Origin: Pocillopora verrucosa
Taxonomy: Eukaryota; Cnidaria; Anthozoa; Scleractinia; Pocilloporidae
Length of the DNA stretch: 64,000 bases
Assembly (NCBI RefSeq): GCF_036669915.1
Contig: NC_089321.1
Span: 7,420,163-7,484,162 of the forward strand
Direction of reading: 5' to 3'
A program made the translations under genes and the position numbers. Within the stretch, counting starts at the first letter, position 1. Each line of letters opens with the position of its first letter. The notes beneath the pieces were generated by a model. That model worked only from the letters and a program-made list of their open reading frames with translations. It did not search any database and was not told the DNA's origin. Below, piece by piece: positions 36 to 59,859 of the stretch.

Positions 36-1599
36 GTAAGTTAGTGCGTTGCATCTGTTTGAATTTCAGTTTTCTTCCATGTAATCGAATTTGGAATTAT
101 CAGGTCTGATCTCCTTCAATCGTTAATTGTTATATACGTGCTCAGTAGCCCTCAAAGTTCACGTCTCTGATCGTCCTTTTCGTCCTTTGTAGACGTCTCG
201 TCATTCCGGGGCGCTGGTGAACGAAGGATTTCTACGAAGAGAGGAATTCGAGTGGATTTGGCGGACAAAGAGTAAGCAGTCCGGTGATTTAGTTCCATTT
301 TTAAAGCATGTCTCCTGAGACCCTCAAATATTGTTTTGTTCATACATACGATTTTTAATCCTTTTAAGAACTGTTTTTTAAGAAAGTTACGCAGTCGTAA
401 TTGCCAAAATGAACAAGGTGGTCCCAAGAGAAATATTTTCAGCGGGGAATTTTTTGAGCAAGGTAGTTTCCCCCACGATTTTATCATAAAACAGACACGA
501 ACGTTTATGAAATGTTACTTTTTATTTTGGTTGTCTTTCAATATCTTTTTGTCTGTATTATTCTACAGAAATATATTTCTGCTGCAATTTCCTGGTTAGG
601 AAAATTTTAATAAATCACTTTTAACAAGGAGAAAAATTATTAAAATAACTGTAGTAAAAGGAAATGATGGGTATGATTTGTGCATGTGTAAGGAGTGATT
701 CGTATAAGTGTATTGTTGTGTCTACCGAATCAAGGCATTAAAAAGATAAAAGTCTAATTTCCAATACGTTCATGACACAAATTTTCAAAATTGCAGATTT
801 TTTCTTTGTTTTATTGATTCAATATAGACTTCAACTATGTGTATTTTCATGGTAGTGCATAACGAACATGCAACATCAATTTTGTCTAGTTTGAGGTAAA
901 TTAAGGTATCTTGGTTTCACAAGAATTCACTAAATTCAGCACTCCATGCTCCATGTTTTTCTAAATAATCATTTGAGAAAATGAAATCCTAAAAACTAGT
1001 GGCCAGGATTGAAATATTGTTTGCTAGAAAAAACAAATTTTAGTACAATTGGAAAAGGACATTATATACAATACCATATGATGTACTGTACCTCTGACCA
1101 AAACTGAGTTTTTAGAGAAAAAATTCGGAAATGTAGCAATCATTTGTAAAGGTTCATGTTACATCTCATGACATAAAACGTTCATGTTTGTTTTAAGTCA
1201 AAAGAGAAAGAGGGAAATATTATTTTAAAGAAAGTGGTAGGATATTTAACATAATTATCCCATCTGAATGTTTATTTCACCTTGATTTTGGAACATAAAC
1301 ACTAAGTATTAATTGAATGAAGCAAAATACCATTAGTGCTGACCCAAGGTGAAAATTTAATCTGGGTTTCTTTATTCCTTTATTCAAAAGCCTTTTTGGG
1401 ATAATGTCCTGTGTTCTTTTTAGAGCATTAAATAGTCACATTATAGACAAGAAGAATTCAACTGAATTTTTTTTTAAGCTATCAGATCTGAAATCAGATT
1501 TCACACTAACCCTGAGTTATCCTAACCCAGCTTTGAAAAACCCGGCCCAGGTCACCAAACTGACCAAATTAACCTTTAGTTAATTATTTAGAAATATCT

Positions 1600-1757
1600 T
1601 CACCCTTTCACTCCCAGATCTGTAAGTAATTCTCCTTACTGTCTGCCATTTGCCCAACTGATATTTCTCTTTATTCTCATCACTTGTCTTCTTGACATTG
1701 TATCGATATTGTAGGGAGAAATTCTGTCTTGGTCACTCCTGGGAGTTGAAGGGTTAA
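1600..1757 (+). repeat. MITE, AACCCTTTCACTCCC family
   Basis: A short element bounded by imperfect inverted ends: CACCCTTTCACTCCCA on the left and GGGAGTTGAAGGGTTAA on the right. Related copies lie at 15772-15982 and 45427-45637, with a degraded piece near 11060-11200. No coding capacity. It fits a non-autonomous DNA transposon lying in the 5' intron or upstream region of the kinase gene. Confidence 0.65.
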
Positions 1758-1852
1758 ACCAAAGCCTTCACAGCTTGGAATGCTGAGTTACTGTTGAATT
1801 TAGTAGTAATTGCATGAGAAAGTGAGTGTCTTTGTTGTGTTTTCAATGGCAG

Positions 1853-4800
1853 CATAAACTTACATGTGTCACTTACTGGAAAAGCAACTAAAATCCCTGA
1901 AGAACATGACTGGGTTGGTATAGAGGAAGAGACTCTAACTGTTACAGTGAAAACAACTCTATGTGATCATGGCACACTGACAAGAGAACCATCAGATACA
2001 GGTTCCACTCAGAAAGGAAGTGGTGATCCAAATAAGACATGTCAGACACTTCCAGATGGAGGAGGACCCTCCCCACAGGTTGCAAAGGTTCAGAATGGAA
2101 GCATCAGCTACTCCCGCTGCAGCAGTGGTAGTGGAGGAGATGATGGAGATGGTGATGATAACAGGAAGCAGACTGGTCGCATTGGTGGCTGTCAAGGTAG
2201 TGGTGGGAATGATGTAGACAATGAGGACGAAAGTAAGCAGGCATCCAAACAACAGGGTCCTGAAGATGATGTTGCTAATGATAATGATGATTGTCGCGGC
2301 AACGAAGAGAATCACAGTGAATCTCAAAGAAGTGGTAGGTAACTGTATTCCAGCTCTGGGTGATTTTGATACTAGGGTTGCCAAGAAGTTTGAAAGTAAA
2401 CTGCAAGGAGGAAGTAGGTAACCAGGTTATTGTGAATACCTTGTTGTTTCATTACTTTACCTCCAAGACTAGGAACTACACTTACTCTGTTTAAATGTAT
2501 CCCATTATTGAGATAGTTTACACAAACTTTCAAGTGAATTCTGATTGTAGAATTAATTCACATACCTTAACTTTTTTTGTGGTAAACTATGCATCTAATC
2601 TTACTCAAAACTTGGGAATGGTTGCTGCAAGAATCTCTCTGATGGTATTTCAAAAATTGCTGGCTTTCTAATCAACAGGTAAGGTAAAATGAGGTGAAAA
2701 AAGCAAGCTTAAGATGGGAGACTAGCTGTCAGTTTTGACCGGCAAACAGCTCAGACTGACAGCCATGGACACCACCTTTAAGTGAAGGCTTGATGGATGT
2801 GTCATGATAAGAGCTCATTATTCATATATCCCTCCTTTTAATGCAATGTTAAATGGCTTTCCCATAAGTAGAGTGATTGTAGGATTTGCCTTTCCTATGA
2901 TCAGCTTAACTCTTACTGTTTGATGGAGATGATTCCTTCTTTGATATAAATTTCATAAGTGAAAGAACAGTGCATACTGAATTAACATGTGAAAAAAGTG
3001 TATTAATACTCAAAGTAAGATCAGTTACTGTTGTTAAAAAAAGCACTTTATATATCCATTTTGGAGTGCTGTCATTTACCACTAGAGTTGTATGTTTGTT
3101 GCAGATGAAAGTCAGAGAGATGGTGCACAGTCTTCAAGTAGCTACAGCACAGTGCCTGATGGAAGTGGTGAATCTCCCTCCCAGAAAAATGGAAACAGTT
3201 CATGTTCCGACAATGCCAAGAAAGCTGCTCAACAGGTTAATTAAAGCTCTCATGATGTTGTGCAGATTATGGATAGCTCATTCTTGTCACTAAGCCAAAC
3301 TATGTTAAAGTTTACTGACAATAAATTTATCAAGACAATATTTAGTTGGTTATTGTTTAGACTGAAACAAGACTGGGTTTTCAGCTCAAATTTTCTCTAA
3401 ACCTAGATCCACTGGTTCAAAAATCATGAATTAAAAGTTCTTTGGACCAATGTAACTTTTGCTTTTAATAAATGTCTGTATGAAATTGCAGGGCTTGTGG
3501 ATTGATGTTACTGCAGTCAAGATAACAGCTCAAGCACATTTCACACCCCTTGAGTCACAGGTATTCTGAATTAACTTGGAATGTCTTTGAAAATCACATA
3601 TTCTTCAAATCATAGTTCTCTAATGGAATTTTTTTTCATTGTAAGTTATTTGGTTCCTGAAAATATTTGAAACCCCAATCAAAAGGGAATTATAGAATTT
3701 AAGGAGTTTGTGGGTTAGGTTCGAAGATGCACAGAACACTTGAGAGTATAAAGTGTGCATTTAGAGAAATTACATTATTTTATAGCTGGTTAAGGTTCAT
3801 GCAGTGATGAATGAAATGTATTTCAAAAAGTGCTGCTCTGAAAGTGGCCTATCAAATGTTCTATGGCTATTGATATTTAGTGCATTAAATACATTGAATT
3901 TGATTTTGTTGCCAAAGTATTTGTGACAAGTAATATATAATATGTTTTTCCCTTTTCACTTGAACTCTTCTTAGGATGAATCAGAGGAAATCTGCAGGAG
4001 TGAATCAGATGAAGACCTGCAGAAAGCCTTTACCTGTCGGCGAAACTTGAATTCTGAGAGAGAGTGGCAGAAATGTACTGATGCCTTCTGTCAGCTAATC
4101 CAATACTTGCTTGACCACTCGCAAAACTGCAGAATGCGTGTGTTGGGTGGATGTGAAGACTGCATCAGTTATAAGGATATGCTGTTTAACCATGTTTCAA
4201 CATGCATTCTTCCTCTAGGACGATGTGTAGTTGCAAGGTGTGATTACATCAGGGAGTACATGCGTACAAACTGCCTTCCAGATAACAGGAAATGGACATG
4301 GGCCCTTGATCAGTTGTTCTTCAGACCCACACCCCCCTCAACACCCACAAATGAAGACAGTGAAGAGTTCCTGGGTGGTTATAAGGAAGTTTTGACAAGA
4401 CTGGAAGCTGCAAACGCCCAAGAAGACACAGTTCATGATCCAGTTAAAGACATCCTAATTGCTGATAGAAGCTTGACATCTAACTGTGAACCCTTGCGAA
4501 GTGCAAATGGATGGAATCAGTACCATGTGGACCGCCCACCAGATGTCCAAGTTACCAGAGGTCCTGTTATCCAGGAATCCATCCAGGCTGAATGTGAAGA
4601 CTGTTCACCAAGTGCCCCATTGAGTGTGGCTGATGTGTCTGTGACAAATACTTGTACAAGCCAGACTGTGGGAAGTGATTTGGTGCAGGAACTAGGAGAG
4701 GTCATTTGGCCCTTGAACCAGGTACTGCTAATTAACCCTGGGTCATATGTCTTGTTTGCATTTCAGCTCTCAGGAAGATGAACTTCCATTAGATGGCTGC

Positions 4801-7800
4801 TTGACGTACATGTAAATATACATGTACCCTGAATCACCCACATTTGTCTTGAACCTTTCATATAGAGGAATTTAAACCTTCAAATTCCCATAAGTGATAT
4901 TGATAAATCACCTACATTTTCCTTGAACCTCCCATATAAAGGAATTTAAATCTCCCTTCGAATTCCACCAAGGGATTAAGAGGTTCTTTCTCCTTGTAAT
5001 TTTAAAATACATTATTTAGCAAACAAGTAGAAAGTAACATGCCATTTGGGGTTTATTATTATCTTGATATGGCACTAAATGCTTCGGTGATCACTAATCA
5101 ATTCACAAGAGGCTGTGTAGCATCTGCTTTGTGCAAAGGGGAATTACTTGTATTCGTCAGATTATTGGGGGGGGGGGGGAGTCTCTGTCTCTCTCTTCTT
5201 AGTCTGTCTTGATAGGCTGTTCAACTGGAACAGCTGCTATGGCTGGTATCTGCCAGGCTTAAATTTATAATTTCTCATAACAAACTGTAGCTATCTGCTC
5301 TTTTCAGGAGAAGTTGGGTGTTGGTGAGAATGGGTCTTACATTGAGAAAACCCATTGGCAAGTCATTCATTCAATTGGAGGGGGCTCTTGTGGCCGTTGT
5401 TATCTTTGCCGTGATTTGTCAATCCAATCTCTTTTTGCCATCAAAAAGGTACATGATTTTTTCAAATAAATTAAATAATTTTTGTTTTAATGTGATAATT
5501 TGGTTTTGTTAATGGAGTTTATGAGGTAAATTAGCCACTACAAAGAATTTCAAAGCTGACATTTTGAGCATTAGCCCTTTGTCAGAAACTCTTTAAGGTG
5601 GCTAATTTACTCTATCAACTTAGTTGAGAAAACCAGATTTTCTTGTTAAACTACGCCAGTGATACAGTACTACAATGATATCTCTCTAGAGCTTTGTCAG
5701 AGCAAAAGGCTACTGGTCAAAAAGTCAGCTTTGAAAACTCTTTAAGGTGACTAATCAACTCAGTTGAGAAAACCAGATTTTCTTGTTAAACTACACCAGT
5801 GATACAGTACTGCAATGATATCTCTCTAGAGACTTACATGTACCCCCTTCATTTACATGCCCTTAAGTTTTAACAAGTTTGTCAATTTATCATTTATTTA
5901 AAACTACTGCTGTTAAAAAGTTTTCAAAGGTGATTGGTCATCAGCAGCCAGATTTGCAGTTTTTAATGCTTATAGGGAAGTGTTTGAAGAGGACAGTTAA
6001 CACTTATCCCCTTAAGTCATCTTGTGACTGAATTTCATGCATTCAATACTGTCTGTAAACATACACAGGATTAACAAATTGGACCCCTGCTTCACAACTG
6101 TCTGTCAGTTTGATAACAGACCGAATTGGACTCCATTCACTTTTAATACCATTGAAAATCATTTGGTTTTTACTGCTACTCATTCATTCATTTTAATGCT
6201 TTGTCTCCAACATTCATAATAAATAATTAATGATTAACCTTGAGTATATGATGATATATTCTTATGTGATATTTTTTGACATGCAGATTCCCATCGGCAA
6301 GTTTGAAAGTAATGAAATTGAAATTTGGGGAGGGCTGTCTGGACGACATCCAAACATTTTGGAATTGTATGGTGCCATGAAATACAGACAGAGTGGCACA
6401 GTGATTATATTCATGGAATATATGAGTGGTATGCACAATTTTTTTGTTTTGTGTATATGTAACTTTGATTTTAGTACAGGGTCCCCCGATTTCATTGTGT
6501 TAATTTGATAAGTTTGAAATGAATGTTAGGATACATGCTGGGTTACCTATTGAAAAAATTGTCTGTTTTGCATCCTGATGGATATTTGGGGCCCTCATGA
6601 AGTTGTAGTAGAGTAAAAGTTTTGTTGTCTGATGGACTTTCCCAAAAACTCCCTTGCAAAATGTTTAGCTCTAGCCAGGCTATTGTGTTCTCTCCTTTAC
6701 TAAGGCACTTTACTAACATCTCCCTCCCTCTGTTCATCAAGGATTACGAAGGGGTACTCGCAACTGGTAGTGAAACTTGAAAAAATTTGCTGGGTAGAAG
6801 GAGGAGTAGCAGTACTCCTTACGCTTGAAAATTCAGCTTTAAAAGCTCTCTGCAGTGGCTAATTCACATTATCAACTTAGTTGATCAAACCAAATTATTG
6901 TGTAATACTCCCTACCCATGCGACACAATAGTTTCTTTAGAAACTTACTCCCTTAATTTTCTTAAGGGAGTAAGTTTTCTTGCTTCAAACCACCGCACAG
7001 TTACAAGTTCATCTTATGTTTTCTTGTGTTGATTTTGTATATAATCCTTGTGCAGTAGTGTGATTGTGTTCATTCATTCTTTTAGGTGGCTCTGTTGAAG
7101 AGTATGCTGGACAAATGGAGCACAATGAGATCTGGGCAATCCATGTCCTTGGAAAAGTTCTGTCTGCAGTAGACTTTATGCACTTTCAAGGAATACTGCA
7201 TCGTGATATAAAGGGTTAGTGTATGCATGTTCATGGAGCTGCATCATGTTTGTGAATCTTGGAAAATTTGGGTTTCATTTTTTCAAGTTTGTAATCTTCT
7301 TTCTCCTTAATCATCTCTGTTACATACCTTTTGGGATATTGTTGTTGGTATCTTTGAAGTGTCTTTCTGTTTAAAGGAAACTCTGTGTGGTCATTGAAAT
7401 GAATCAAAACATTGTGACATAATGGAAGCTAAACTTATGGCTCCCATTTAGTGCTGTCCATGGGCTGTTTTAATGGCTGTTTGGATGCTGCCATAGTGGC
7501 TTGCTTTTGGTAACATAATCTGCAAGCATTATGAAAAGTCATCTGTTAGAAAATTAAATGGATTACATTGTCAATTTAATGCTTACAAATAGACTACTTC
7601 AATTCTTTAAAGTCATTTTTACATGAAATGAAAAAAAAAAAATTTGCTGATCTTTTTATCTCTTTTATTTTTTGTAACATCAACCTATGCTGTTTGTTTT
7701 TTGTTTTTGTTTTCATGTTGTCAGCTACAAGCCACATCACTTTGCATTTGTGAGAATGAGTCAAATGGCAGTCAAAGTCTAAATTAGCAAACAAGTGTCC

Positions 7801-10800
7801 AGATCAAAGAGCAGCTTATGCTTGGTTATTCCAATTTTGGGCTTCCACTAAATGCTCATTCAGCAGAGTGTATTTACAAGAACAAATTCACTTGTATTCA
7901 TTCTGTAATTTTTTATGTCAGTTAGTGTGTTTTTTTTTTTTGTGCACAGGTGGTAATGTTCTTGTGGATGAGACCGGTCAACATGTGAAACTTGCTGACT
8001 TTGGAACAAGCATCAGATGTGAGAGCTTTCTTCAGGATAACATCCCAAGAGGCACAGAACCTTTCATGTCCCCAGAGGTAAACGTAGCAGTCAACTTAAA
8101 TTGAAACCTTGTTGTAGAAGTGTATCACACATCTGTATGTGACTAAAGGGGGTTGTTTATTTCTTTGATATAGTCATTGTGGTTTCTCCCACTTTCTTAT
8201 GGTCTATAACAAATTAATTTATAACATAGCTTGTAAATTTGTCTAATCAAATTCCATTGCGCGAGTGTGCTTCATATTCTTATTGTGCATGCTCATGATG
8301 TCAGCAAACAAATCCCTCGAGAAAAAAAATTCTGGGGTTGAAAATGTTATAAAACAATTGTTTCATACGTCAGCTGTGCATTCAACAAGATATGAAGCAC
8401 TTGGGAAGTTTGGAGAGCACTCAAGAAGCTAGATTTGCTCTTGGCTATGCCTCGAGCAACTCTTATGCATCTTTCATGCTCTCCAAACTTCCCGCGTGCT
8501 TCATATCTTGATGAACGCATGCTGATGTACGAATCAATTGTTAATTGAATCATGGCTAGTATCTTGATTATTGTTTACAAATTGAAAAGTTTCTTTATCT
8601 CATATCATCAGATGTGTCGGAGTGAATGCCACTCTTTTAGTACAGATATTTGGAGTATCATGTGCCTGCTTTACCAACTGCTGGCAGGACGTCCACCTTG
8701 GGTAGATTCATGTCATGGTTCACTGATCTATAGGGTAAATTTTACCATGTTTGTTATTCTCCTTGTACACATGATACTTCCCTCCGTGTTGATCATAGCA
8801 GTATGCAATATATGTATCACTTATAAACCTCCAAATGATCTAGCTTACTATAGAGTCTCTGTGGCTCATTGGTAGGGCAGCTGAGTTTGGAATACAATGG
8901 TCTGAGGTTGTCATATATCATGGGACTCAGAATTTTTTTCTGCACCTGACATAAAAGTTTTCAGTTTGCATAGATATTATATGGTTTGTTGTTCACCTTC
9001 CTTAGCTGCATCTATTTTTTTCACAGATTGGTACGGCTAAGGAACCACCATTTTCTCCTCCATGCAGCCCAGAGGTTGAGGACCTCTTCAGCCAGGGCTT
9101 CATTCTAAAGCCAGCTGATCGTAAGACTGCAAGGCAGCTGCTGAGACATCCAGCAATAATAGCAGGTAAGGTAGCCTTGACAGTATCCACAGGGATGATT
9201 TCAATGTAATTTAGTGCCCAAGTCTAGTCAACTGCCCTCTCAAATCATTTTTATTGATAAAAATGCATTTATACTATTTTAAGCCCTCCTAAGCTGCTAA
9301 ATACTTAAAACCATGAAGAATCCATTTCTTGAGAAAGACATAAGCACAACTGTGCTCCATTCTCCTTTAAATTTTATACTGGACAGTCATGTGGAGTAGT
9401 CGCTTTTCTTATTGGCTTAAGCTTCCCAAAAGAAGTCGCATGCTGATCCAATCCCAAAAAGTAAGCTAGATTTCTTGCTGTACTTTTCAGCCTGGTAAAG
9501 TGGCTCTGTATGCTTTCCATCAAGACTGATTATTTGGAAGCCAGGAATTTTGTCATCACAGGGCAAGATAAAATGTTCGTGTTCAGTACAATTTTTGAAT
9601 GACACACCACCTTTTATGTTAGTTTCAGCTCCAGATACATCAGATTTTCTCCTTCCAACCTGGGGGGACACAGAGCAATATTCTGATGGTGCTTCCAGCA
9701 TTAGCTCTTTTTCAAGTAATGTATTGAAGTCCATTGTGTCAGAAATGTCTGCGGACCAGCTACTGTGTGATGATTGTGCCTCAGATCTGGAGGGTGATGA
9801 TGCAAACTTCAGTGACTGTTATGATGATGGCACTGATGATGATGATGATGATGATAATGATGATGATGATTTGGCAGAGACGGATGATTTTCAAGTGGAT
9901 GGGTTAATCTTCCCCCCTAATGGACCTTGGCTGGGTGCTGATCTCTCTGTTGAGCAACAGTTTCGATCACTTCAAAGTGGTAAGGACTTTTGAAAATTAC
10001 TTCATAGCTAGAAGGATTGCTTTGTTGCAAAGGAAACCCTTAAGTTTGTTTTAATTTTAAATTAGGGGCTCTAAAACTGAAAGTTAGAGACTTTAATTGC
10101 ATAGTTCCTCCCTCCATATAGTGACAGAAGTGGCTCAACTGGCTCCTCAAAATTTGACTTGATTCTCTTATTGTGGTGAGGGAGGGAGGTTAATGAAGGT
10201 GTGCACCCCTCCCCCCCACAGCAGCCCCAAGGAGAACTAGTACCATTTGACATTGATACTGTAGAAGGTCAATGAACAGACAGGACAAACAGGATAAGAT
10301 GTTCTCACCCAAGAATCCTTTCAATATCTAACAGGGGTGGGTAGAGAAGTAGAGAAAAGTCAGTCCCTAGAGTTACTTGCACTTTGTTTTCTGATTGTTT
10401 TGTTTATCAGATTTGGTTCTCAGTCTTTCGGCTGATGAGTTAGAAAGACATGTGCTTTCCAATTTGGTTACTGATGTAAGTGAAAATGATGTGAACCAGC
10501 TGAGAGATGACAATTTTGATGTCAGCCAAGTTTTAGGTTGGTATATATATATTTTTTAACTTATTTTCATACCAAGTGGGACAAATAACCTAAGATTCTG
10601 TTTAAGAGTTTTCATGGGTAATGTTGGTGGTAAGGAATTTATTGACAAAGATTCTTTGAAGGAAATGACACAAAGTGCACTTTTTAAGTTGGGAAAAGTT
10701 TCTTTGGACAAATGCTAATCTTGATGATGAGAAAATACAGAAGGTAACATACGTTTTAAATTTCTTTTCCAGGGTTAAATCACCTCGAAATACAAAGTAT

Positions 10801-12415
10801 CGATGATCTGCCCCCATCAAGTACACCCCCTGTCAATGATTGGTCGTATTCCATCACAGGTAAACTTTCAATCTTTGAATCTTAAATACTATTGATTAGT
10901 TCAAATTTTTAGAAAAAAATTTTCCACTATTGTTCTGCTGGTGTGCAATGTATTCAGATTTACATTTCCTGTGTTGTCTTCATCCTTTAACACATGGATG
11001 TGATTGACATGTTACTTCTCCCTAAAATATCCGTACATTATTCAGCAAATATGTGATAAGAATACTCAAGCTTATCAGGTAGTAGTTGTTATCTTAATCT
11101 AATACCAAATTCTCATAACTAATGTACTACGAAATGTGTAGCAGCTAGAGTGGAGAATGAACAATTAGATATTGGGAGTTAAGGGTCTTAACTGTATGAA
11201 ATCTGTATGTATCTCAGGCATTTAGTCTTACATTGTGATCCGGGACAGGGTGGTTATCCAATAGTGACTCATTATATCAAAAGAAATATCCCTGGGTATC
11301 TGTTTTGTTACTTATCCTTCACGCTATAGTTCATTTTTTATTTTGGTTTTTACATGACGACTTTATAAATGGTGCTGTAACTTTTCTCTTTTTAAATCGT
11401 GCATAGGTTAAGTCTTCTTCTGCAGTTGTTTATCTCACCTTTGCGTCACGTCATCGGAATACAGCATAGATGTCTTTTCTCTGAGTTCTTATTGGCTCTT
11501 TGCCATATGTAGCTTTGTTCTGATTAGCTGTTTTGGTTCTCTGTTTGGTTTTACTACACTCAATCGAAAAATGCTGTAGAAACAAGCTACATGATTGTAT
11601 TTCTGATTTAGCTGATTGCTACTACAATCGCACTGATCTCCAAGAATGTAGATTTTATATATTTACTTATTTTTTGGATGAGTAACCTGTAGAATTAATG
11701 CCTATGGTTTTTGATATTTTAGATCTCGCAAAGATTCAAATCACAGACAACAGTGGAAAATGGCTGTTTTCAATCCGTGAGAGACCCACCACAGCTTATG
11801 GACGTCTTGCTGAAGACCTTCACGGCATTGTAAGGGTTTGAATCTGCTATCTCTCATCCTCTTTACATCAGATTAAATGAGTTCCTTCGACAGATCCAAA
11901 GCTTTTAGTACCTGCAACCGTCTAAAACAAAACCTTCCCCCGCAACCCATATGTACATGCCCTTCCCCCCCCCCATACATTTTTGTTCCGAAAAAATTAT
12001 TTTTAAGTCGCGCGTTTTTGCACTAGCGCTCGCCGAGGGAAAAATCGCCAGATCGCAGGTTACCACCATTCCCACAGTATTACTTTTCACCACCGACTTG
12101 TGGGTGTGTTCACGTTTGCACATTACAGCCTCTTCTTGCATGTATTTTTAGCGGGCGCTACTCCTTGCTGGACATGATGCAATGAGAACTGTTTCCATGT
12201 TTTTTACCCCGCAGATTGCAACCCGGCTCAATTTGAACTTCTTTTCGTTAACTCGAGAGGATGGAGCCCCATTGAACGTCCGCGCAGAGATTGGCCGTGA
12301 AGAGCAAACATTAAGGGTGGTGCGTGCGCATGACAATGACCAGTGGCAGGAATACCGCTGGAGAGTGGATGATCGCGGTCGTGTGGAGGAGTTTTTCGAT
12401 TTAGGGAATAACTGA
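1853..12415 (+). CDS. MAP3K-like protein kinase with N-terminal TAZ-type zinc finger (5' incomplete)
   Basis: Fifteen exons can be joined in phase: 1853-2334, 3105-3235, 3492-3560, 3975-4721, 5308-5448, 6287-6428, 7086-7214, 7950-8077, 8612-8734, 9027-9165, 9629-9979, 10411-10536, 10773-10859, 11723-11829, 12215-12415 (stop TGA). They give 1033 visible residues; the first exon has no in-frame ATG, so the start lies upstream. Residues 1-250 are low-complexity, Ser/Gly/Asp/Asn-rich. Residues about 275-327 carry H-x3-C-x7-C-x2-C and H-x3-C-x6-C-x4-C, a TAZ-like pattern. Residues about 499-743 form a Ser/Thr kinase: IGGGSCGR loop, AIKK lysine, HRDIK, DFG, and SPE in place of APE. A poly-Asp run follows (about residues 796-816), then a conserved-looking C-terminal domain (about 930-1030). 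The kinase resembles the MAP3K group; MAP3K14/NIK or MAP3K8 relatives are my guess, not proven. It probably acts in stress or NF-kB/MAPK signalling. Confidence 0.8.
5594..5830 (+). repeat. tandemly duplicated dispersed-repeat unit, about 140-bp period
   Basis: A unit beginning CTCTTTAAGGTG and ending ATCTCTCTAGAG occurs twice in near-identical form, at 5590-5691 and 5734-5830, in the intron after the kinase glycine-loop exon. The same family, with the core 'ATTATCAACT-AGTTGA', recurs at 6840-6980 and 18840-18990. It looks like the tail of a dispersed retroelement. Confidence 0.65.
6840..6985 (+). repeat. copy of the TTATCAACTTAGTTGA dispersed repeat
   Basis: Shares the core AATTCACATTATCAACT with 18846-18862 and is close to the 5594-5830 units. 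It ends in a short inverted repeat, ACTCCCTTAATTTTC followed by CTTAAGGGAGTAAG. Intronic, non-coding. Confidence 0.55.
8353..8542. mobile_element. palindromic MITE (AACAATTGATTCRTAC ends)
   Basis: Nearly the whole element is an imperfect inverted repeat. The left arm starts AACAATTGTTTCATACGTCA and passes through ATATGAAGCAC and GGGAAGTTTGGAGAGCA. The right arm is its reverse complement and ends GTACGAATCAATTGTT. It sits in the kinase intron between the SPE-containing exon and the next one. A half-copy of the same arm occurs at 52003-52080. Confidence 0.8.
8862..8940 (+). mobile_element. degenerate tRNA-derived SINE head
   Basis: A box-A-like TGGCTCATTGGTAG is followed at tRNA spacing by a weak box-B-like GGTCTGAGGTTG, then a T-rich CAGAATTTTTTTCTG hairpin like the one behind the SINE at 42222. 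The acceptor stem is not intact, so it is not a functional tRNA gene. Intron of the kinase gene. Confidence 0.5.
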
Positions 12416-13332: not shown

Positions 13333-14532
13333 CTATAGAGTTGTAGCACGCCTTTCCACAGCGCGAGTGTTCTCTGGTCGGATTTGCACACCTTGAAAGG
13401 GGCGCCTTCTTCTAATGAAACCCTTAACTGCCTTCTTAAATTCAGAACTCCGAAAGCTGTACAAAACAGGGTTAATGGCTGAGTTAAGATAACCCAACAT
13501 AAGAAAGAAGGTAAGCAATTCAGGATGCTTTGCGATATCGATAGCACATTTCCGACACAGAATGTACGTGATGCTCAGAAATGAGTGAGGCAACCAACAG
13601 ACCACGAACGAGAAAACGATCAGAAATGTTGTCCTGGCTGCGCGAATGTTCCGTTGTTGTAATTTCCTGATGAGGATGGCTTCATGTCGCGATCGCATAG
13701 ATTCGACAGGTTGTTGTTCTGAGGTAGGTGAATTGGAGCTCTCTTGGACTGTACCAAGCCTTGCTGGGTTTTCAATACTTTCTGGTTTAGCTACTGAAAC
13801 ATTCCCTCTCTTTTCTTTCAATCTAGTCATGTGTTTAGTTTTTCCAGCTCGGCGGCCAGTTTTTGGAGGATGCGCCCGCTTGATTGCGACGCAGAACATT
13901 CTGCAGTTCAGGAAGGAAGCGATTATAACTGGTATCACAAAATTTATCATCGAACTTAAGACTGAATAAGTTAAAGAGAGGTTGAAATAACAGTATTCAT
14001 AATTAACACTTCTTGGAAGCCGTTTCCAGCCAAAGACTGGGGCGAGTGAAAAGAGCATGGAGTATACCCATAAACAGCAAACGACTATAGAGGCGCGCCT
14101 ACGAGTCATCAGCGGCGATGCCTTGTAGATGTCCAGGGGTTCTTGCAGCAATCGGTATCGATAAACTGTCAAAGCCAACAAGCTTAGAATGGACGTGGGT
14201 ACAGCCATTAAGTATGTTGTAGTCCATACGTTGCACATGATTTCACCATGTATCCAGCGCTGGAATGAAATGATCAGCTCCAAGTCAAACGGCATCACCA
14301 GACAAGCTGTTATCAGATCAGAAGCTGCCAGGGAGAGTATGAAGCACGAGTTGATGGATTGCCGCAGGGATCTGGTGTTGAGTATGACTACACAGACTGT
14401 GATATTTCCCAAGAGGGAAGCGATGATGATGATGGCGTAAAATATGGAATATGAGACCATAACTGGTGAGACACCATGATTGTAAATGGTAGGTGAGGCG
14501 GTCGAGTTAGTCGCATTTTCTGACTCATTCAT
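13333..14532 (-). CDS. orphan class A (rhodopsin-family) GPCR, copy 1
   Basis: An intronless coding exon of 399 aa. Two N-glycosylation sites (NAT, NST) open the protein. TM1 carries GN at residues 42-43, TM2 has LAASD, and TM3 begins at a Cys in CNVW and ends YRY, so the DRY aspartate is Tyr while Arg is kept. TM6 has CWLPH and TM7 NPVLY (Asn at about 354). The usual amine-receptor Asp of TM3 is Tyr, so a classical monoamine ligand is unlikely. The third loop is long and basic. I chose the ATG at 14532 because a splice acceptor (TTTTGCAG) lies 30 bp upstream, inside the longer open frame; the 42 residues before it are intronic. Paralogous to the receptor at 21434-22645. Ligand unknown. Confidence 0.9.
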   Translation of the reverse strand: MNESENATNSTASPTIYNHGVSPVMVSYSIFYAIIIIASLLGNITVCVVILNTRSLRQSINSCFILSLAASDLITACLVMPFDLELIISFQRWIHGEIMCNVWTTTYLMAVPTSILSLLALTVYRYRLLQEPLDIYKASPLMTRRRASIVVCCLWVYSMLFSLAPVFGWKRLPRSVNYEYCYFNLSLTYSVLSSMINFVIPVIIASFLNCRMFCVAIKRAHPPKTGRRAGKTKHMTRLKEKRGNVSVAKPESIENPARLGTVQESSNSPTSEQQPVESMRSRHEAILIRKLQQRNIRAARTTFLIVFSFVVCWLPHSFLSITYILCRKCAIDIAKHPELLTFFLMLGYLNSAINPVLYSFRSSEFKKAVKGFIRRRRPFQGVQIRPENTRAVERRATTL

Positions 14533-15771
14533 GGCGGACAACAACCTTTCTTCCTTGCTAGGCCTGCAAAAGTGAAAAGAGTAGGAGACATGCTGGCTAA
14601 ACATGTGACAACTACAAATATGTATACATGTACTAACATCCAAAATTAAATGTTGCATACATAAAACGGGGAATATTTTTTTGTTTTTCTGTCGTGTTTT
14701 CGCTTACAGTTTTCATCTCTTGAACATTTGATAATAAACTAAGCCATCCTTTTAGAATAAGTTCAAAATGCATTTTCAACTGATGATAAGCAAGTTTTGG
14801 ATGAGGTTGAGTATGATTTCATGAATCATAAACAGATAACGCAGACAGGAGGTTGCATAATTCATGATAACATGCGAAAACCGAATTCAAGAATTGTTTT
14901 ATTATACATTTTCAAACGGTCTGCAAGAGAAAACACTTCCCTTAGAGTCTGAAAAAGGTTGCGAACACTACACGGTCGTAGGGCTTGAAAACTAGGCAGA
15001 CTTTGAACTCGAACCCAATATATGTGCTGCAGATATTGGGTTATGATGTCAACTTCACACGCTATTGAATATTGCAATTGATTGTATGCTCTCGACCAAT
15101 TAGAGTTTTCGTAATAAGTCAATTGTATAATAATGTTATTTGGTAATCAATAACGATCTCAGATGAAAGTTTAAAATAGGCTATCGAAGTGATGCAGATT
15201 TTCAAAAAGATGGGATATTCTGAAGACTGAAATTTTGCAACTCAAAAACTGACTTTGTTTAATGCGAGCGGTGTATTTGACTGAGCTTGTTTATTTGCCG
15301 AATTTTCTTGAAAGTTATGAAACCCATAATTTAAAACAATCGCCTTAATCCTGTCTGATCGTTTCGGAAACAATAGTTGTTTGAAGTAGTATTTTATCGT
15401 GTGCAGCGTCAATATGTCGCTACGAAATTGCTGCGAGAAAACAGATGACAGCTATTGGGGTATTTAACTAAGGTAATTTGTAATTTTTGCGCAATACTAT
15501 GGTAATGCAGAAAGGCATTCCCAGGCCTTTTTCCATGAGCTCACCAGCAGGTGAAAATGGAATAAAAGATCAATTTAGACCATAAAAAAGCTTTTTTTTA
15601 CATCCATTTAGTTTTCCTCAAAATAATTCTTCAGCACTAATTTACCTCATACGAACATGCTTACTATCTAAAGAGATTTATCACTACAAGAGGAGAGATA
15701 TCTTATCGGATGATACTTAGATTTTGACGAATAATATTCTTGTTATTAACAGTTCTCGATCGTTTCATAAA

Positions 15772-21433: not shown

Positions 21434-22645
21434 CTAGAGCCTAGTCTCCCGATCCACACTGGTGCTCTTTGTAATGCTCAATCGAGGGTGTGATAATTTT
21501 CTCCCCGAATGCTTATTCGATGAGGTAGACCTCTTCACGAGAAATATTTTGACAGCTTTCTGAAACTCTGGACTGCGAAAGCTGTATAAAATTGGATTCA
21601 AGGCCGAATTCAGATAACCCAACACGAGAAAAAAGCCCGTCACATACGTATAAATATTGTATGGGACATTGATGAAACACTGTTTGCAAATGCTAAACGT
21701 TATGCTACATAATGTGTGCGGAAACCAGCAGAATACGAAGGAAAAAACGATCAAAAAGGTTGTCTTAGCTGCGCGACTGTTGCGCTTTTGTAGTTTCTTA
21801 AGAAGGAAGTCTTCCTGTTGTGCAGATTGGTATAACACCCTATCATCAACAAGATGTGGTTTGTAGAGGTGTTTCGAAGGCTTGGATTTCAGTGGTGACT
21901 CGGTGTTTTCACGCTCATAGAGTGAACAGTTTTGAATCGCTGTACTGTAGCTTGAACTGTGTCGGTTTTTACCACAACGCTCATCGACCCTCAACGCTTT
22001 GCGGGAGAGCTTTAAAGCAAGGCAGAACATTCTGCAGTTTAGGATGGAAGCAGTCATAACTGGCGTCACAAAATTTATCATCGAGCTCAAGACTGAGTAA
22101 ATCCAAGAGACGTTGAAATGACAGTATCCATTAAAGACACTTGTTGGGTACGTTTTCCAGCCAAAGACCGGGACAAGTGAAAAGAGCATGGAGTATCCCC
22201 ATAAACAGCAGACGACTATTAAGGCGCGCCTGCGTGTGATTAGTGGTGATGATTTGTAGCTATCTAGAGGGTCTTGTAGGAGTCGGTATCGATAAACTGT
22301 CAGAGCTAACAAGCTTAGAATAGACGTTGGCACTGCCAGTAGGTAAGTTGTTGTCCAAACATTGCACATTACCTCACCATGTTGCCATTTGCCATTTGAA
22401 ATTAAACGTTCCAAGTCGAACGGTATCACCACACATGTTGTCGTCAGATCAGAAACTGCTAGCGAGAGGATGAAAAACGAGTTGACAGATCGCCGCAGGG
22501 ATCTGGTGCTGAGTATGACCACACATACTATGATGTTTCCTAGAAGTGAAGCGATGATTATAAAGACATACAATATGGCAGTTATGGCAATAAACTCAAG
22601 GTCACCTCTGCTAGTAACATTTCCTGTATGTTGTGAGTCATTCAT
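21434..22645 (-). CDS. orphan class A (rhodopsin-family) GPCR, copy 2
   Basis: A 403-aa intronless coding exon, paralogous to 13333-14532 through all seven helices: LLGN in TM1, LAVSDL in TM2, CNVWTTTYL and YRY in TM3, CWFPH in TM6, and NPILYSF in TM7. N-glycosylation sites NDS and NVT lie in the N-terminus. The third loop is Ser/Lys-rich and differs most from copy 1, which suggests different G-protein or arrestin coupling. The ATG at 22645 follows a 5' UTR stretch whose acceptor is TTTCAG after a long poly-T tract (the A-run at 22694-22716). As in copy 1, the TM3 amine-binding Asp is Tyr. Ligand unknown. Confidence 0.9.
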   Translation of the reverse strand: MNDSQHTGNVTSRGDLEFIAITAILYVFIIIASLLGNIIVCVVILSTRSLRRSVNSFFILSLAVSDLTTTCVVIPFDLERLISNGKWQHGEVMCNVWTTTYLLAVPTSILSLLALTVYRYRLLQDPLDSYKSSPLITRRRALIVVCCLWGYSMLFSLVPVFGWKTYPTSVFNGYCHFNVSWIYSVLSSMINFVTPVMTASILNCRMFCLALKLSRKALRVDERCGKNRHSSSYSTAIQNCSLYERENTESPLKSKPSKHLYKPHLVDDRVLYQSAQQEDFLLKKLQKRNSRAAKTTFLIVFSFVFCWFPHTLCSITFSICKQCFINVPYNIYTYVTGFFLVLGYLNSALNPILYSFRSPEFQKAVKIFLVKRSTSSNKHSGRKLSHPRLSITKSTSVDRETRL

Positions 22646-23556
22646 CTTGAATCCAAATGCAGTGCCCTTGAGCTAAGTATTTTTTAAGTTTCTGAAAAAA
22701 AAAAAAAAAAAAAATTTGTTCTTTAAGTATTGCTGTAGAAGTAGACACGTCAAAGGACCATTCGGGTCACGGAAAATGATGCTGCACAGGAGAACAGAAC
22801 GATCAGAAGGGGTTTTCTTTCTCTAAGTTTAACTTTCCTTTCGGATAAATTTGACGGGCAAAAAAGTGGTACATTAAAACTTAATAATAATAATACTAAT
22901 AATTATAATAATAACAATCAAATCTTATTGTGAGGTCTCTTGGGGTAATAGGGTTTGGTGAAGGTGTTTAAACTTGTTTCTATGTTCATTCTGGTATACA
23001 CCTTTGATTACGTCCTGACTTAAGCATTCAAACTCTGGAAAATCTTGATATTGAAACTCGTAAACCCATCGCGATCACGTTATACCCTTTGACGGCTAGC
23101 TGTTTAGTCCTATTCTTATGACGAAAACCGCATGTAGTACTTACTAAGGGCCTAGCTAGCGCAGGTAGTGACGGGCAATTACTCTTGGCACTTCTTGTCT
23201 CACTCAGAAAGCATCGCTTTCCGACCGTGCCACGAACGAAAAGGTTCGCCTGCTAGAGTCATTGAAGCTGATAGGGTTTCAAAAAACTCGTATAAACGCA
23301 ATCACATTTAACCTAAAGACGGTCGCTCTGCAATTATGGGGTTATTTCTTCGAGAAATAAAGTCAATGTAAATCCTTTGCTCCTTCTATAACATCATTCT
23401 TACTCTGTCTTCACAAAGGATGGCTTCGAAGCGGCGGATTCAGTTCCAGCTGCTTCACACTTTTTTTTTTTTTTTTTTTACAACATAATACTTACATTAA
23501 CTACATTAAGGTTCCTTTCACGGAACTCTCTACGTACATTGCGTACACTACTTACT

Positions 23557-36000: not shown

Positions 36001-37734
36001 CTTTGCTTAATGGAGAAAGTAATTGCAATTTTTGTCAAAGTTTTGCGCTCTTATGATAAGAGAATTTGAAACTTGTAATGCGTTTCAAACTCGACAGCTA
36101 CTTGAAATTGGTTGTTTAATGCAAAGTAAGAACTCGAACCATCGATGGGTAAAAGCTGTTTATCTCGTATTCAGAGTACTCTTTTAAGAGATAAAAAAGG
36201 GAAATAACCCCTCCCTCTAGGAGCAAATTTTACGATTCAAGTTGGATTCGTGATCCTTATGATCTCGGAATCAAACACAAGTAGTACTCAAAAACAAACT
36301 ACAGTAATCTCAGTTAGTGATAACTGAAAGCAATAAAATAAACTTTGAAAACCATGTGTTGATAGCTTCTTTTTCAAAGAAAAGTGGCTATTACTCGCCC
36401 ACGAATGGCAAGATGTGGATGCCAGGAAGTTCAAATCACCTTTGCGGAAACACAGATACACAAGGTACACAGACGTGAGGCCACGAAAGAAGGCGAAGAC
36501 AGCAGTACCCTGTAATCTCTCTTGCAAGCCTTGACCAACCAGCGGTGCCCGTTTGAATCAGCCCTTCCTTTGGCCTTGAGAAATTTTGCACGCATGTATG
36601 AAACGAAATTAGCCCGCGGAACAAACGTCAAATTTTTGCGTCAAGCAAGCTATACCAGGAAAGAAATGCAGCAATAAAGATCTTTGAGACAATTTGATCA
36701 GCCCAATTGAATTTAAGCGGAATTGGCCGAGAGAAGGCGCCCTTTTTCTTAATTGGTTTTTTATTCAGAAATTTTATTGTTTTAAAAACGAACTCTTTTA
36801 ACTTTACAATGCCAGGGCACTTAATGACCCAGAACGGAAAACTAATATTGATAAATTAATGGTCGTCAATTGTGTAATGTTGGCGGACGTTGTCGACAGA
36901 CGTATTGAAAACCTTGTCCGTTTTACTTAAGACACTCTTCAGCCCTTTGTCAACTTCTGTATATATTGATAATTGATCACAAGAGGTGACATCCTGTCCT
37001 GAGTGTTTTGATGGGTTTCACTGTTCCCTCTCCTTCAACTGTGTTTATCACGAATGACTTGAATAAATGCACGAATAATTAGTATTTTTCGCTATTTTAA
37101 ATTCTGAAGAATGAATACTGGCTTTGTCTTTTGTTGTGAATAGCGTCTGTTTATACTTGATACAGCAAAACTACGGGGTTTCTAGGCTTTTAGAATGCCT
37201 CCCCAAGCATTTGATATGCATTTCTTAAATGGGTAAGTGAGTGAGTGGGCAGAGAAATTGTTTCCGGATCCGTCGTGAGAAATTTCTTCGTTTTACATTT
37301 GGAATATTTCAGAAGACTTCAAGGATTGCTTACTCGCTTTACTTTTACTCTTAGTTGTGAGTCGTTCATTTTTATGGTTTTTCTGTTTTATTTCAGTGCA
37401 GATTTTTTTGTTATTTTCATAATATTGCCTAAAGCTAATTAAAACCGTTATACTCAATGTGATAGAAGGCGGTGTTCGTTAATCATGGCTATTAATGCAT
37501 AATGCCCTTGAGGAAACTTCTGCTGTTATTTCTATATGCGTTGCTAGAGACTCATTCAAATTCCTTTTAATGATTGTGTCTTATTCCTTCTCAACAATTA
37601 TATGTCTAAGACTGAATGTCAACACACTATAATTGCGTGATTGCGTGACAACACATGTACATTACCCATAAATCAAAGCAAGTTACATAATCTTTTGTTC
37701 ATTCAAAAATTATCGGCAAACCACAACAACAAAG
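27100..37734. other. gene-free stretch, AT-rich
   Basis: No protein-like frame, tRNA or rRNA was recognised in about 10.6 kb. All open frames are short and lack recognisable motifs. Repeat-like pieces are suspected around 31550-31900 (GCCAATCAGAGCGCG, common beside non-autonomous elements) and around 36290-36650. The stretch between the GPCR cluster and the BTB gene could hold distal regulatory DNA or unspliced non-coding exons that I cannot see. Confidence 0.5.
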
Positions 37735-39045
37735 ATGGCGTCCGCGAGTGAGATACCGAGCTTTGAGAAATGCCAGCTCAAAGCAACGACCGTACGGGAA
37801 AGGAATGAACTGATGTTTAATAATGAGATACTCAGTGATGTGCACTTCATGGTGGGTAAAGATAAAGTCCGAATTCCTGGTCATAAATACGTTTTAGCCA
37901 TCAGTAGCCCAGTGTTTTTTGCTATGTTTTACGGTCGAATGGCTGAACAGGGATCAGACGTGGCCGTTAGTGACTCCGAGGTTGAATGTTTTATGGAACT
38001 TCTGCGCTTCATTTATACAGACGAAGCAATTTTGACGCTGGACAATGCCCTTGGAGTTCTTTATTTAGCAGAGAAGTACATGTTGCCGGTGTTAGCAGCC
38101 AAGTGTATCAATTATGTCGAAGCGAGTTTAAATCCCGAGAATGTTCTAACGGTTCTGAGCCATGCAAGGTATTTAGGAAAAGAAGAACTGCAGAAGAGGT
38201 GCTGGGAGGTGATAGACACATACACGACTCAAGTTCTAGAATCAGAGGCATTCCTAGAGCTTGAAATAGAAACACTGTCGCTTCTGGTACAACGAAACAC
38301 AATATCGGTTAAAGAGATTCAAATGTTTAAAGCTATAAATTCTTGGTCAGAGAATGAATGTCGTCGCCAAGGCATTAAACCGATTTCTGACAACAAGAGA
38401 GCAGTGTCTTCGCAAGCCATGAAATTTATAAGATTTCCTCTGATGACGCCCTTAGAATTTGCTGACGAAGTTGCCAGATCTGGAATGCTTTCCTATGAAG
38501 AAACAACCAACATATTTTTATACTTCTTTTCCACCCGCGAAACCGAACTTCAATTCTCTAAAATTCCTCGAAAACCTAGGGAAACTTTGTTGAAGAAGAC
38601 TTTAAGATGCTCTAGATTTAAGAGCTGTTGCGGAAATGACTGGTTCTGTGACACAAGAAAATGCGACGCTTTAAAATTCATGGTGAACCGATCGGTTCAC
38701 ATCAAAGGGATAGCAGTTTACGGCGCAAGCAAACTTGAAGGTGATTATACTGCCAGCGTGCAACTCCTGAAACAGACCAAAGTCCTCGCTGACGGTGAAC
38801 GTATATTTTCTTCTGGTACAAGCGCTTTGTTACACGACGTTCTGTTCGATAGACCCTATTTAGTCGACAAGAATGAAGTGTACACAATAAACTTGATGTT
38901 ACAAGGACCATGTTCTCAAAGTGGAAGAGACGGATTTTCCTCTGTTGAAACAGAGGGCGTGACGTTTACCTTTATTGAATACACTAGCCCCAATGGTACA
39001 TCAGCATCTGCTGGGCAAATCCCTGAAATTATCTTTCAGCTTTAA
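37735..39045 (+). CDS. BTB-BACK-PHR protein, BTBD6/BTBD3-like, single exon
   Basis: A 436-aa intronless gene. Residues about 27-125 form a BTB/POZ domain (LSDVHFMVG, HKYVLAISSPVFFAMF, FIYTD); residues about 135-240 form a BACK domain; residues about 290-436 form a PHR domain ending in IPEIIFQL. Vertebrate BTBD1/2/3/6 have this order and act as Cullin-3 substrate adaptors; substrates here are unknown. The length is somewhat below the human forms because the N-terminal tail is short. The ATG sits in AAAGATGG, a good start context. The absence of introns amid intron-rich genes suggests a retrocopy or an intronless lineage-specific expansion. An AATAAA follows at 39108, so it may be expressed. 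Confidence 0.9.
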   Translation: MASASEIPSFEKCQLKATTVRERNELMFNNEILSDVHFMVGKDKVRIPGHKYVLAISSPVFFAMFYGRMAEQGSDVAVSDSEVECFMELLRFIYTDEAILTLDNALGVLYLAEKYMLPVLAAKCINYVEASLNPENVLTVLSHARYLGKEELQKRCWEVIDTYTTQVLESEAFLELEIETLSLLVQRNTISVKEIQMFKAINSWSENECRRQGIKPISDNKRAVSSQAMKFIRFPLMTPLEFADEVARSGMLSYEETTNIFLYFFSTRETELQFSKIPRKPRETLLKKTLRCSRFKSCCGNDWFCDTRKCDALKFMVNRSVHIKGIAVYGASKLEGDYTASVQLLKQTKVLADGERIFSSGTSALLHDVLFDRPYLVDKNEVYTINLMLQGPCSQSGRDGFSSVETEGVTFTFIEYTSPNGTSASAGQIPEIIFQL

Positions 39046-40052: not shown

Positions 40053-43000
40053 ATGAATTGTTTCAATATGGCGGACGATGTAGGGAAAGGATTTTCTCCT
40101 TCAGAAACGACTAATGGTGGTGATAATTCTCAATCTGACACATTGGTAGAGACAAGATTAGATCTAGAATCTGTATCGTTGGTTCCTGGTGTCAAACTCC
40201 GGCCTGGGGTAGCACCTATCAAGACTCAGTAAGTGTGTTCAAACGTTTTGAATTGCACGTGGCTGCTACAGAAATGGAGCTTGCGTGAAGGTTACACTGT
40301 ACGCTGTACGCTGTACGCTGTCCATCTATTCCACAAGTTAATTGGTATTTGTGTTTTTTGCTTGCTTTGGTTTGTTTCGTTCTGTGGTAAGCCTTCTCCT
40401 TGAAGTAACCATCAGTGTGACCCACAATCTCAGACTGTGTTTAGTCGGAGTTACGCAAGACTTTCTGTATAACCTAACCGTTTTATCTGAATCATTCTTA
40501 GTCTTAACGATAAACTGACAAAATGATATGGCTTCACCGACAACCTGGCCACCTACTATTCCTTATTTTCTTTTTAATTTCAAACCTATTGCCTGCCTTG
40601 CCCCTCAGTTTTTCTTCTTTTCCTCTCAATTTTTCAAACAGGTATTTAAAGAAGGTTTCAAAAAGTGCTGCAAATAAAGTGAGTTCAGATGAAAGTAAAG
40701 CATCATGCAATGAAGCTGAGAAAAAGAGACCTGTTTGTGAAGATGAGAGTGATAACAACAAAGCAGGAGAACCTTCTAAAAAGAAGAAAAAACGTGGAAT
40801 GAACAAAGCCAGACCTCGGGCAGCAAAACTTGACTTTAGCCAGCAGTTGTGCACAAGTGTAGTCAAGGGAGAGTTGTGTGCATATGGTGAGAATTGTAGA
40901 TATCTGCATGACATTGAAAAGTATGTGACAGATCATAAGCTGCCTGATATTGGAGAAACCTGTGTGAACTTTGAGAAATATGGAAAATGTATATATGGAA
41001 TAACATGTAGGTATGGGAAGAAACATATTTCCCAGAATTATGAAAACATTGTAAATGAGGCATTGTACAAAGAGACTGCCCCTTCAATGACAAGGACTGT
41101 TTTAAGCAAAGAGCTCACATTTTCATTGAGGAAAAAACAGTATGAGTTTCCCAAAGCAGACATATTCCTGGCACAGCTTGCAAAAGTGAAAGCCGAAGGT
41201 AAAGAATACAGTGAACTTGGAAGTTTGCAAAGACCATGTCCCAAAAGTGCAGGAGCCATCACAGACGAAGATGTCATCAAACTTAGACCACAAGAAAAGA
41301 AAAAGGCATGTACGGTAACTATTCATTCAATAGGACACATGCTTTGAATATAAGCTGTCACTGAATAACTGTTGGTGGTCCTGTTTTTTCCTCCTTTCAG
41401 ATCAATTTTGCAGACAAGCTGTATTTGGCACCACTAACAACTGTAAGTTATAATTTCCAACCACTTTATTGTGTGAAGCTGATGGGACTGTATTGGTGTT
41501 TAATTTTTCAGTGACACATTGTTAACTATTTGATCATAATGGGTGTATACATGTATAACAGTTCAGCAATCAGTGATAAATGCTGTGAATACCAGTCAGC
41601 TCCAAGGGAAAAAAAAAGGAAAATTTTTTCCTGTTTTGACCAGACCCTGGTTAGAATAAACTCTGAGTAGTCTTACTATTTTTTCTCTTACTAGAGTTTT
41701 ACCCACATTCTCAGGGCAGACTCTGGATGAAGGATAATTTCCAGAGTTCCAACATTTTTAAACCAAAGAGAAGCTCAAACTTTTTAGATTAAAGATTTTT
41801 CTTAGAATCCTGCTTTGAAATTTTTGTAAGTTTCCTATTTAGAGAAATATTCAAACCATTGGCTGAATGAAAAGCAATGTTGATAATTAACGTTGGTTGA
41901 TTTAACTTAATTGTTCCTTGTCAAATTTTGAGGCCTTCTTGTAAGTTACTTTTTTGTACTGTCGTTTCTGACCCTTGCTTTCACAAAAAATCTATTATTA
42001 GGACTCTTTGTCCCACACTCTTGATGATACAAAAAACATCTTTCTTTAAATCTATTATGCATGGACTCTGTGCACCTTTTTTTTTCAAACAAATAGAGGC
42101 TTGATTTGCAATTCATGTCAGCCCTATTTTACTTGTACTTTGTAGTTAATAGCTCCAGCCAAGAAGATAACTCGATAAGACATCTACCTTTATGTCTTAC
42201 CTGTATTTAATAACACTGCACTTGCTTGCTAGCTCAGTCGGTAGAGCGCTGCACTGGTATCACAGAGGTCATGGGTTCAAATCCCACATGGGCCTGAATT
42301 TTTTTCAGGTCTTATTTCAAGTACTAGTTCAGTAGTGTTCATAGGTGCAAGGATCTTTTATATTTGTTTCTTCACCACAGTACACATATATGATTTTCAT
42401 ATATCCATAATCATTATTTACTGCCCTTGTAGGTTGGTAACCTGCCGTTTCGCAGGGTTTGCAAACAGTTTGGAGCAGATATAACTTGCAGTGAAATGGC
42501 CATGTGTACCAAACTACTTCAGGTCAGTCTCTTTGGCTAATAAAATTATTTTACAATGTTATCTCGATTTGCATTCCTAAAGGATTCTTGATTTTGTTTT
42601 TAGTTATGTTTTAAGTATATTTATAGTGAGAAAAATGAAGAAACTCAAATTGTCCTTGTAGGGCAGTATGTCAGAATGGGCCTTGCTGAAGCGCCATAGC
42701 TCTGAGGACATTTTTGGTGCACAGGTAAGGGACTTATCTTTAGTTTGCAAAGTACTATTATAATTCCTTTTGATTTTTTTTTCCAGTCTGTAGCCTGAAG
42801 TTTACCAAAATCCAAATACAGTTACAATAATTTTACGAAAAAACAATTTGTTTATATGATGATTATAGTGAGTAAATATCACTTGTTATATTTTATATTG
42901 TTTGTCAGAATACTGAATTTTCTGTTATATATGCAGCTATGTGGTTCATTTCCTGACTCGATGGCAAAATGTGCTGAGCTCCTTCAGAATGATGTCCCTG

Positions 43001-59854: not shown

Positions 59855-59859
59855 TGTAA

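Follow-up and report, generated by a model that had tools for sequence, protein, structure and literature searches.

The first 12 kb of a 64,000-nucleotide stretch of DNA from the cnidarian Pocillopora verrucosa (NC_089321.1, positions 7,420,163 to 7,484,162; the whole stretch is hereafter called the window) raise the question of whether a TAZ-type zinc finger and a kinase of the MAP kinase kinase kinase (MAP3K) type belong to one protein, and if so what sort of kinase carries the finger. The reading favoured here, to which a probability of roughly 0.6 is given, is that a single gene encodes a kinase that belongs to the NIK/TPL2 branch, ends in a NIK-like C-terminal tail and carries a TAZ2-like finger in its N-terminal half, and that this kinase would act in IKK/NF-κB signalling. 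NIK and TPL2 are kinases of immune signalling. The gene is probably that of the animal itself, a cnidarian. Relatives of the exon that encodes the finger (the TAZ exon) were not found in prokaryote genome contigs, viral contigs or plasmids, as expected for an animal gene. The genome searched was the source animal's own (353.4 Mb, 52 contigs), in which the window corresponds to C10:7420163-7484162.

The gene model consists of 16 coding exons on the plus strand, running from 195-271 to 12215-12415 of the window, which when joined give one frame of which 1059 residues are seen. The gene extends to before position 195 at its 5′ end and finishes with a TGA stop at 12413-12415. Its exons are given below, together with the finger and a candidate motif that lie within the TAZ exon.

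195..271, plus strand: first exon used in the model; an AG stands before 193, and 193-194 complete a split codon
1853..2334, plus strand: exon encoding an acidic low-complexity N-terminal region
3105..3235, plus strand: exon
3492..3560, plus strand: exon, phase 0-0
3975..4721, plus strand: TAZ exon, phase 0-0, 747 nucleotides, 249 residues, with AG before and GT after; its one genome match is itself
4023..4280, plus strand: TAZ2-like zinc finger with a degenerate site 1 and complete sites 2 and 3, placed by the zf-TAZ match, the p300 TAZ2 match and alignment
4566..4601, plus strand: VIQESIQAECED, before the kinase, which may correspond to the TRAF3 motif of NIK; the likeness is not significant
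5308..5448, plus strand: kinase exon with the glycine loop and the catalytic Lys
6287..6428, plus strand: kinase exon with a short αC region like that of NIK and TPL2; best genome match of a 50-residue TPL2 piece, E 0.16
7086..7214, plus strand: kinase exon with the HRD motif
7950..8077, plus strand: kinase exon with the DFG and GTE...SPE motifs
8612..8734, plus strand: kinase exon
9027..9165, plus strand: last kinase exon
9629..9979, plus strand: exon encoding an acidic linker between kinase and tail
10411..10536, plus strand: exon
10773..10859, plus strand: exon
11723..11829, plus strand: exon in which the NIK-like C-terminal domain begins
12215..12415, plus strand: last exon, with the stop and the remainder of the NIK-like C-terminal domain

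All introns of the model are bounded by GT and AG, the junctions are phase-matched throughout, and no stop codon lies between the finger and kinase exons. The joined frame of all 16 exons stayed open in none of 500 shuffles, and the TAZ exon was open in any frame in none of 2000 dinucleotide shuffles. The G+C content at the three codon positions is 0.55, 0.43 and 0.39, and that of the introns is 0.35. Three AATAAA/ATTAAA signals are found downstream of the stop, between 12418 and 13300. At the other end a candidate preceding exon ends at 35, the frame stays open through it, and the assembly directly upstream of the window consists of N. In the genome the finger exon occurs once, at the window gene, and so does each of the two exons that encode the tail. 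As the introns flanking the TAZ exon are both phase 0, this exon could be skipped with the frame intact, and its gain by exon shuffling would be mechanically easy. The linker exon carries a run of Asp codons (GAT repeats, window 9800-9890) that may vary in length.

A first-pass annotation of the window had ended the gene at 9165 and counted 15 in-phase exons, with the finger exon joined in phase to the glycine-loop exon at 5308. This junction holds, being phase 0 with an open frame and AG/GT borders, as does the agreement of phase along the whole chain. The number of coding exons in the window rises to 16, and the interval 3975-9165 becomes the middle part of a gene that runs from before 195 to 12415. 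The MAP3K-like kinase that had been read in one frame with the finger is likewise borne out by a Pkinase match (E 3.6e-47 over residues 520-766, Pfam, whole protein), and its position can be refined by tree.

The kinase core is intact, and the alignment places the catalytic Lys and the HRD, DFG and SPE motifs as expected. The best PDB kinases by bit score are MAP3K2 (125.5), MAP3K8/TPL2 (118.8) and MAP3K14/NIK (116.9), followed by STK4 at about 102-105, and with human NIK as the query the nearest other kinases are TPL2 and MAP3K2. The leading position of MAP3K2 would suit a MEKK- or ASK-type MAP3K that had acquired a TAZ finger and was unrelated to NF-κB signalling. However, a six-sequence tree splits NIK, TPL2 and the window kinase from MEKK2 and ASK1 with a support of 98.8/98, and since the MEKK2 branch in this tree is shorter than those of NIK and TPL2 the bit score of MAP3K2 is lifted. 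A MEKK- or ASK-type identity is rejected by the approximately unbiased (AU) test, with p 0.006 for each of the trees that make MEKK2 or ASK1 the sister of the window kinase, and the NIK-like tail described below also speaks against it; of the explanations considered here this one is the least probable. The split is retained (97.7/81) in a 13-sequence tree to which seven kinases of the same genome were added, these being the top ten of 77 human NIK matches minus three that were too short (L009, L013 and L014). The window kinase is probably a member of the NIK/TPL2 branch of the MAP3Ks.

The last ~100 residues of the protein resemble the NIK tail in sequence and in position. The alignment pairs residues 958-1059 with the C-terminal 92 residues of human NIK, 26 of 91 positions being identical (29%; pairwise BLASTP 7e-4), and no score as high was reached in 2000 shuffles (z 8.0). 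When everything after the kinase was compared, 3 of 2000 shuffles were as good (z 4.5); the numbers for four other parts of the protein were 84, 493, 323 and 244 of 500. The last exon modelled alone forms four strands and nothing else, at a predicted local distance difference test (pLDDT) value of 69, and comprises about half a domain; the C-terminal domain found no match in the PDB up to E 10. In mammals the C-terminal domain of NIK binds IKKα and p100 (PMC7696043), and the aly mutation within it weakens the contact with IKKα (PMC7696043 and PMC6210445).

In the TAZ exon the first-pass annotation had seen two Cys/His modules, and both are present, H-x3-C-x7-C-x2-C at 4116-4163 and H-x3-C-x6-C-x4-C at 4191-4241. 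They are preceded by a third, defective TAZ site, in which a Lys occupies the His position and is followed by C-x12-C-x4-C. Aligned with p300 TAZ2 and other fingers from this genome, the region shows all ligands of zinc sites 2 and 3 and, at site 1, the three Cys. On the 4047-4280 translation zf-TAZ (PF02135) gives E 2.7e-5 and 25.0 bits, a score that equals the Pfam gathering cut-off (25 bits). With a limit of E 10, at which filters drop most matches above ~0.1, the finger drew no further Pfam family; zf-TRAF and other finger types are rejected on this result. The best match in the PDB is p300 TAZ2 (E 0.013). Of the 15 PDB matches listed up to E 10, all of them weak, 13 are TAZ chains of p300 or CBP, and these take the top 12 places. 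Scores against p300 TAZ2 were equalled by none of 1000 full shuffles and by 11 of 1000 in which Cys and His were held fixed, and those against two further fingers of the genome (L003 and L004) by 3 and 1 per 1000 full shuffles. A small TAZ profile built from five fingers ranked the TAZ exon first among the 1191 open reading frames of at least 30 residues in the window, at an E-value of only 0.0044. We take the Cys/His region to be a probable TAZ2-type finger of divergent sequence.

The same genome also holds a candidate substrate for such a kinase. A Rel homology domain was found at one genome place, in two exons (L024 1465-9998; G000:C3:5067465-5075998), and these are followed in L024 by exons with ankyrin-type motifs and by the sequence DSGFDSGLGSQ, as seen in a motif scan of one strand and not in a domain search. 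This sequence looks like a phosphodegron and may be read as an IKK/βTrCP site, and by motif L024 has a p100-like NF-κB layout. The animal thus seems to possess the substrate that a NIK-like kinase would be expected to act on. A search for IKK with the one model used, PF12179, gave no match, but the controls were silent too, so that it is uninformative.

Several results weigh against the favoured reading. Those that concern the finger begin with its zf-TAZ scores, which fall to 19.3 bits on the exon and 19.1 bits on the whole protein and are thus below the cut-off. A genome-wide zf-TAZ search with a limit of E 0.001 listed four places, namely the TAZ1 and TAZ2 of a CBP-like gene (L001 and L002), L003 and L004, and did not list the TAZ exon. 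Site 1 has Lys in place of His, and with Cys and His held fixed 188 of 1000 and 192 of 1000 shuffles were as good as the finger against L003 and L004. Taken together, the two kinds of shuffle indicate that the finger matches TAZ mainly through its zinc ligands and to some degree beyond them. The predicted structure, which had been proposed as a check, is all-helical, but with a pLDDT of 47 it is too poor to use. The earlier call of a TAZ finger is supported by zf-TAZ being the sole family listed and is weakened by the score and by site 1. The same points, including the 11 of 1000 shuffles that match p300 with the ligands fixed, would be consistent with some other zinc-binding module that is merely TAZ-like and lacks TAZ-type ligand binding. 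Against such a module stand the want of any second Pfam family up to E 10, the p300 or CBP origin of the 12 best PDB matches, and a site 2 spacing identical to that of p300 TAZ2, and we consider it unlikely.

The position of the kinase within its branch is the second point. The AU test gives 0.68 for the window kinase with NIK, 0.39 for the window kinase with TPL2 and 0.38 for a position outside both, so NIK and TPL2 are not separated, and the 13-sequence tree sets the window kinase outside NIK plus TPL2 with weak support (12.1/47). All three placements would be allowed if the kinase were an undivided forerunner of NIK and TPL2, one kinase in the place of the two of vertebrates, which may feed ERK, as TPL2 does, as well as IKK. 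In addition, the best genome place for a 50-residue piece of human TPL2 is the window gene, at E 0.16, but that search scored four candidates only and none of them was significant. The NIK-like tail favours NIK over such a forerunner; TPL2 is not known to have a tail of this kind. The forerunner is a possible, if tentative, explanation.

Searches with NIK itself also count against a NIK-like kinase. Human NIK 384-947 gave 77 matches genome-wide and the window gene was absent from them at E 10 or better; this miss is not a fair test, because an exon-by-exon search favours kinases contained in one long exon. Neither a 50-residue NIK piece nor the C-terminal 93 residues of human NIK returned the window gene genome-wide at E 10 or better. 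The stretch just before the C-terminal domain is not NIK-like, with 659 of 2000 shuffles as good. The human NIK sequence from which the tail in the comparisons came was a reconstruction; its kinase part differs from PDB 6wpp at 3 of 303 residues, it has the published length of 947 residues, and ISIIAQA stands at 78, as published. With its flank the TRAF3 site of NIK presumably reads ISIIAQAECEN. VIQESIQAECED has QAECE in common with it, and a common 5-mer also arose in 107 of 1000 shuffles.

Finally, the seen frame of the window holds no start codon upstream of the finger. The earliest Met, at residue 307, falls within the finger, and the start codon must for this reason lie in an unseen exon. 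The absence of an upstream start, and splice joins that are predicted from sequence, would also fit two adjacent genes, one for the finger and one for the kinase, whose exons are in phase by chance, or finger exons that serve as an untranslated leader. These readings are opposed by the phase-matched GT-AG junctions, by the lack of a stop between the two parts, by the 586-nucleotide intron between them (4722-5307), which contains no AATAAA or ATTAAA, and by the exons before the kinase, which keep an open frame where shuffles do not; we regard them as very improbable.

For a single gene of the NIK/TPL2 branch, one of the closest comparisons is with NIK/MAP3K14 of vertebrates, which shares with the window protein the kinase branch, the short αC region, GTE before SPE/APE, HW before the glycine loop and a C-terminal domain of ~90 residues at the very end. 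The two differ in that the window kinase has HRD where NIK has HGD, and a TRAF3 motif is not demonstrable in the window protein. The aly site, which we take to be the glycine before VKVQIQ in the NIK tail, provides a further difference, as this glycine is not kept. Mammalian NIK has, to our knowledge, no zinc finger. TPL2/MAP3K8 shares the kinase branch, and its IPVDQF...VEI and RGTE..MSPE segments are close to those of the window kinase; as far as we know it has neither a C-terminal domain nor any zinc finger. The finger has zinc sites 2 and 3, a CQ at the last cysteine of site 1 and a GGC loop in common with p300/CBP TAZ2, from which it differs by the missing His of site 1, a site 3 loop that is two residues longer and a host protein that is a kinase.

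L003 1441-1974 and L004 1441-2901 are two TAZ-bearing open frames that lie ~14 kb apart, outside CBP (G000:C14:6.75-6.77 Mb). Like the window gene they have a TAZ2-like finger outside CBP, but their zf-TAZ scores are higher (42 and 38 bits) and no kinase match is found in frame, nor any further Pfam match at E 0.001.

From what is known of the family, the kinase encoded in the window may activate the animal's IKK, and the activated IKK would then drive the processing of the p100-like NF-κB. The C-terminal domain could act as the docking piece for IKK/NF-κB, as does that of NIK. TAZ domains, which are best known from the gene regulators CBP and p300, bind short amphipathic helices. The finger may similarly be a peptide-docking module and bring in an activator, a substrate or a turnover factor, a task for which mammalian NIK uses its TRAF3-binding N-terminus; this is the least certain step. 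A wider proposal sees in the TAZ-bearing kinase the ancestral form of animal NIK/TPL2. Its finger would have docked the kinase directly on transactivation-type helices, belonging to transcription factors or to their co-regulators, before TRAF3-controlled turnover arose. We hold this to be decidedly unlikely. If it were true, an NF-κB kinase would be steered by a CBP/p300-type contact, possibly in competition with CBP.

In 293 cells the processing of Aiptasia NF-κB is driven by co-expressed human NIK or an Aiptasia IKK, and the same study states that basal organisms had yielded no NIK-like protein (PMC5700166). An Aiptasia expression study names a NIK/MAP3K14 homologue (PMC7654579), so that the mere existence of such a gene in anemones is not an entirely new finding. 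No report of a MAP3K bearing TAZ was found in the open-access literature, nor, apart from the annotation in PMC7654579, any description of a NIK from cnidarians. What is newly added is the TAZ finger, the NIK-like tail and the branch placement. The gene is probably a NIK/TPL2-branch kinase of a simple animal and not merely a MAP3K plus a finger, and one would not expect to meet a TAZ finger in a kinase of this type. If a kinase of this branch with such a tail shares its genome with a Rel homology and ankyrin-like gene, it would fill the reported NIK gap and make that gap testable.

The remainder of the window contains several other features. Two similar long frames of rhodopsin-type G-protein-coupled receptors (7tm_1) are located on the minus strand at 13333-14703 and 21434-22672 and perhaps reflect a local duplication, and a third, weaker 7tm_1 frame is located at 58832-60025. 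A frame for a BTB-BACK-PHR protein (37672-39045) and one for a DUS3L-type CCCH zinc finger (40514-41347) lie on the plus strand. An open frame on the minus strand at 26688-27128 matches the retroelement domain zf-RVT.

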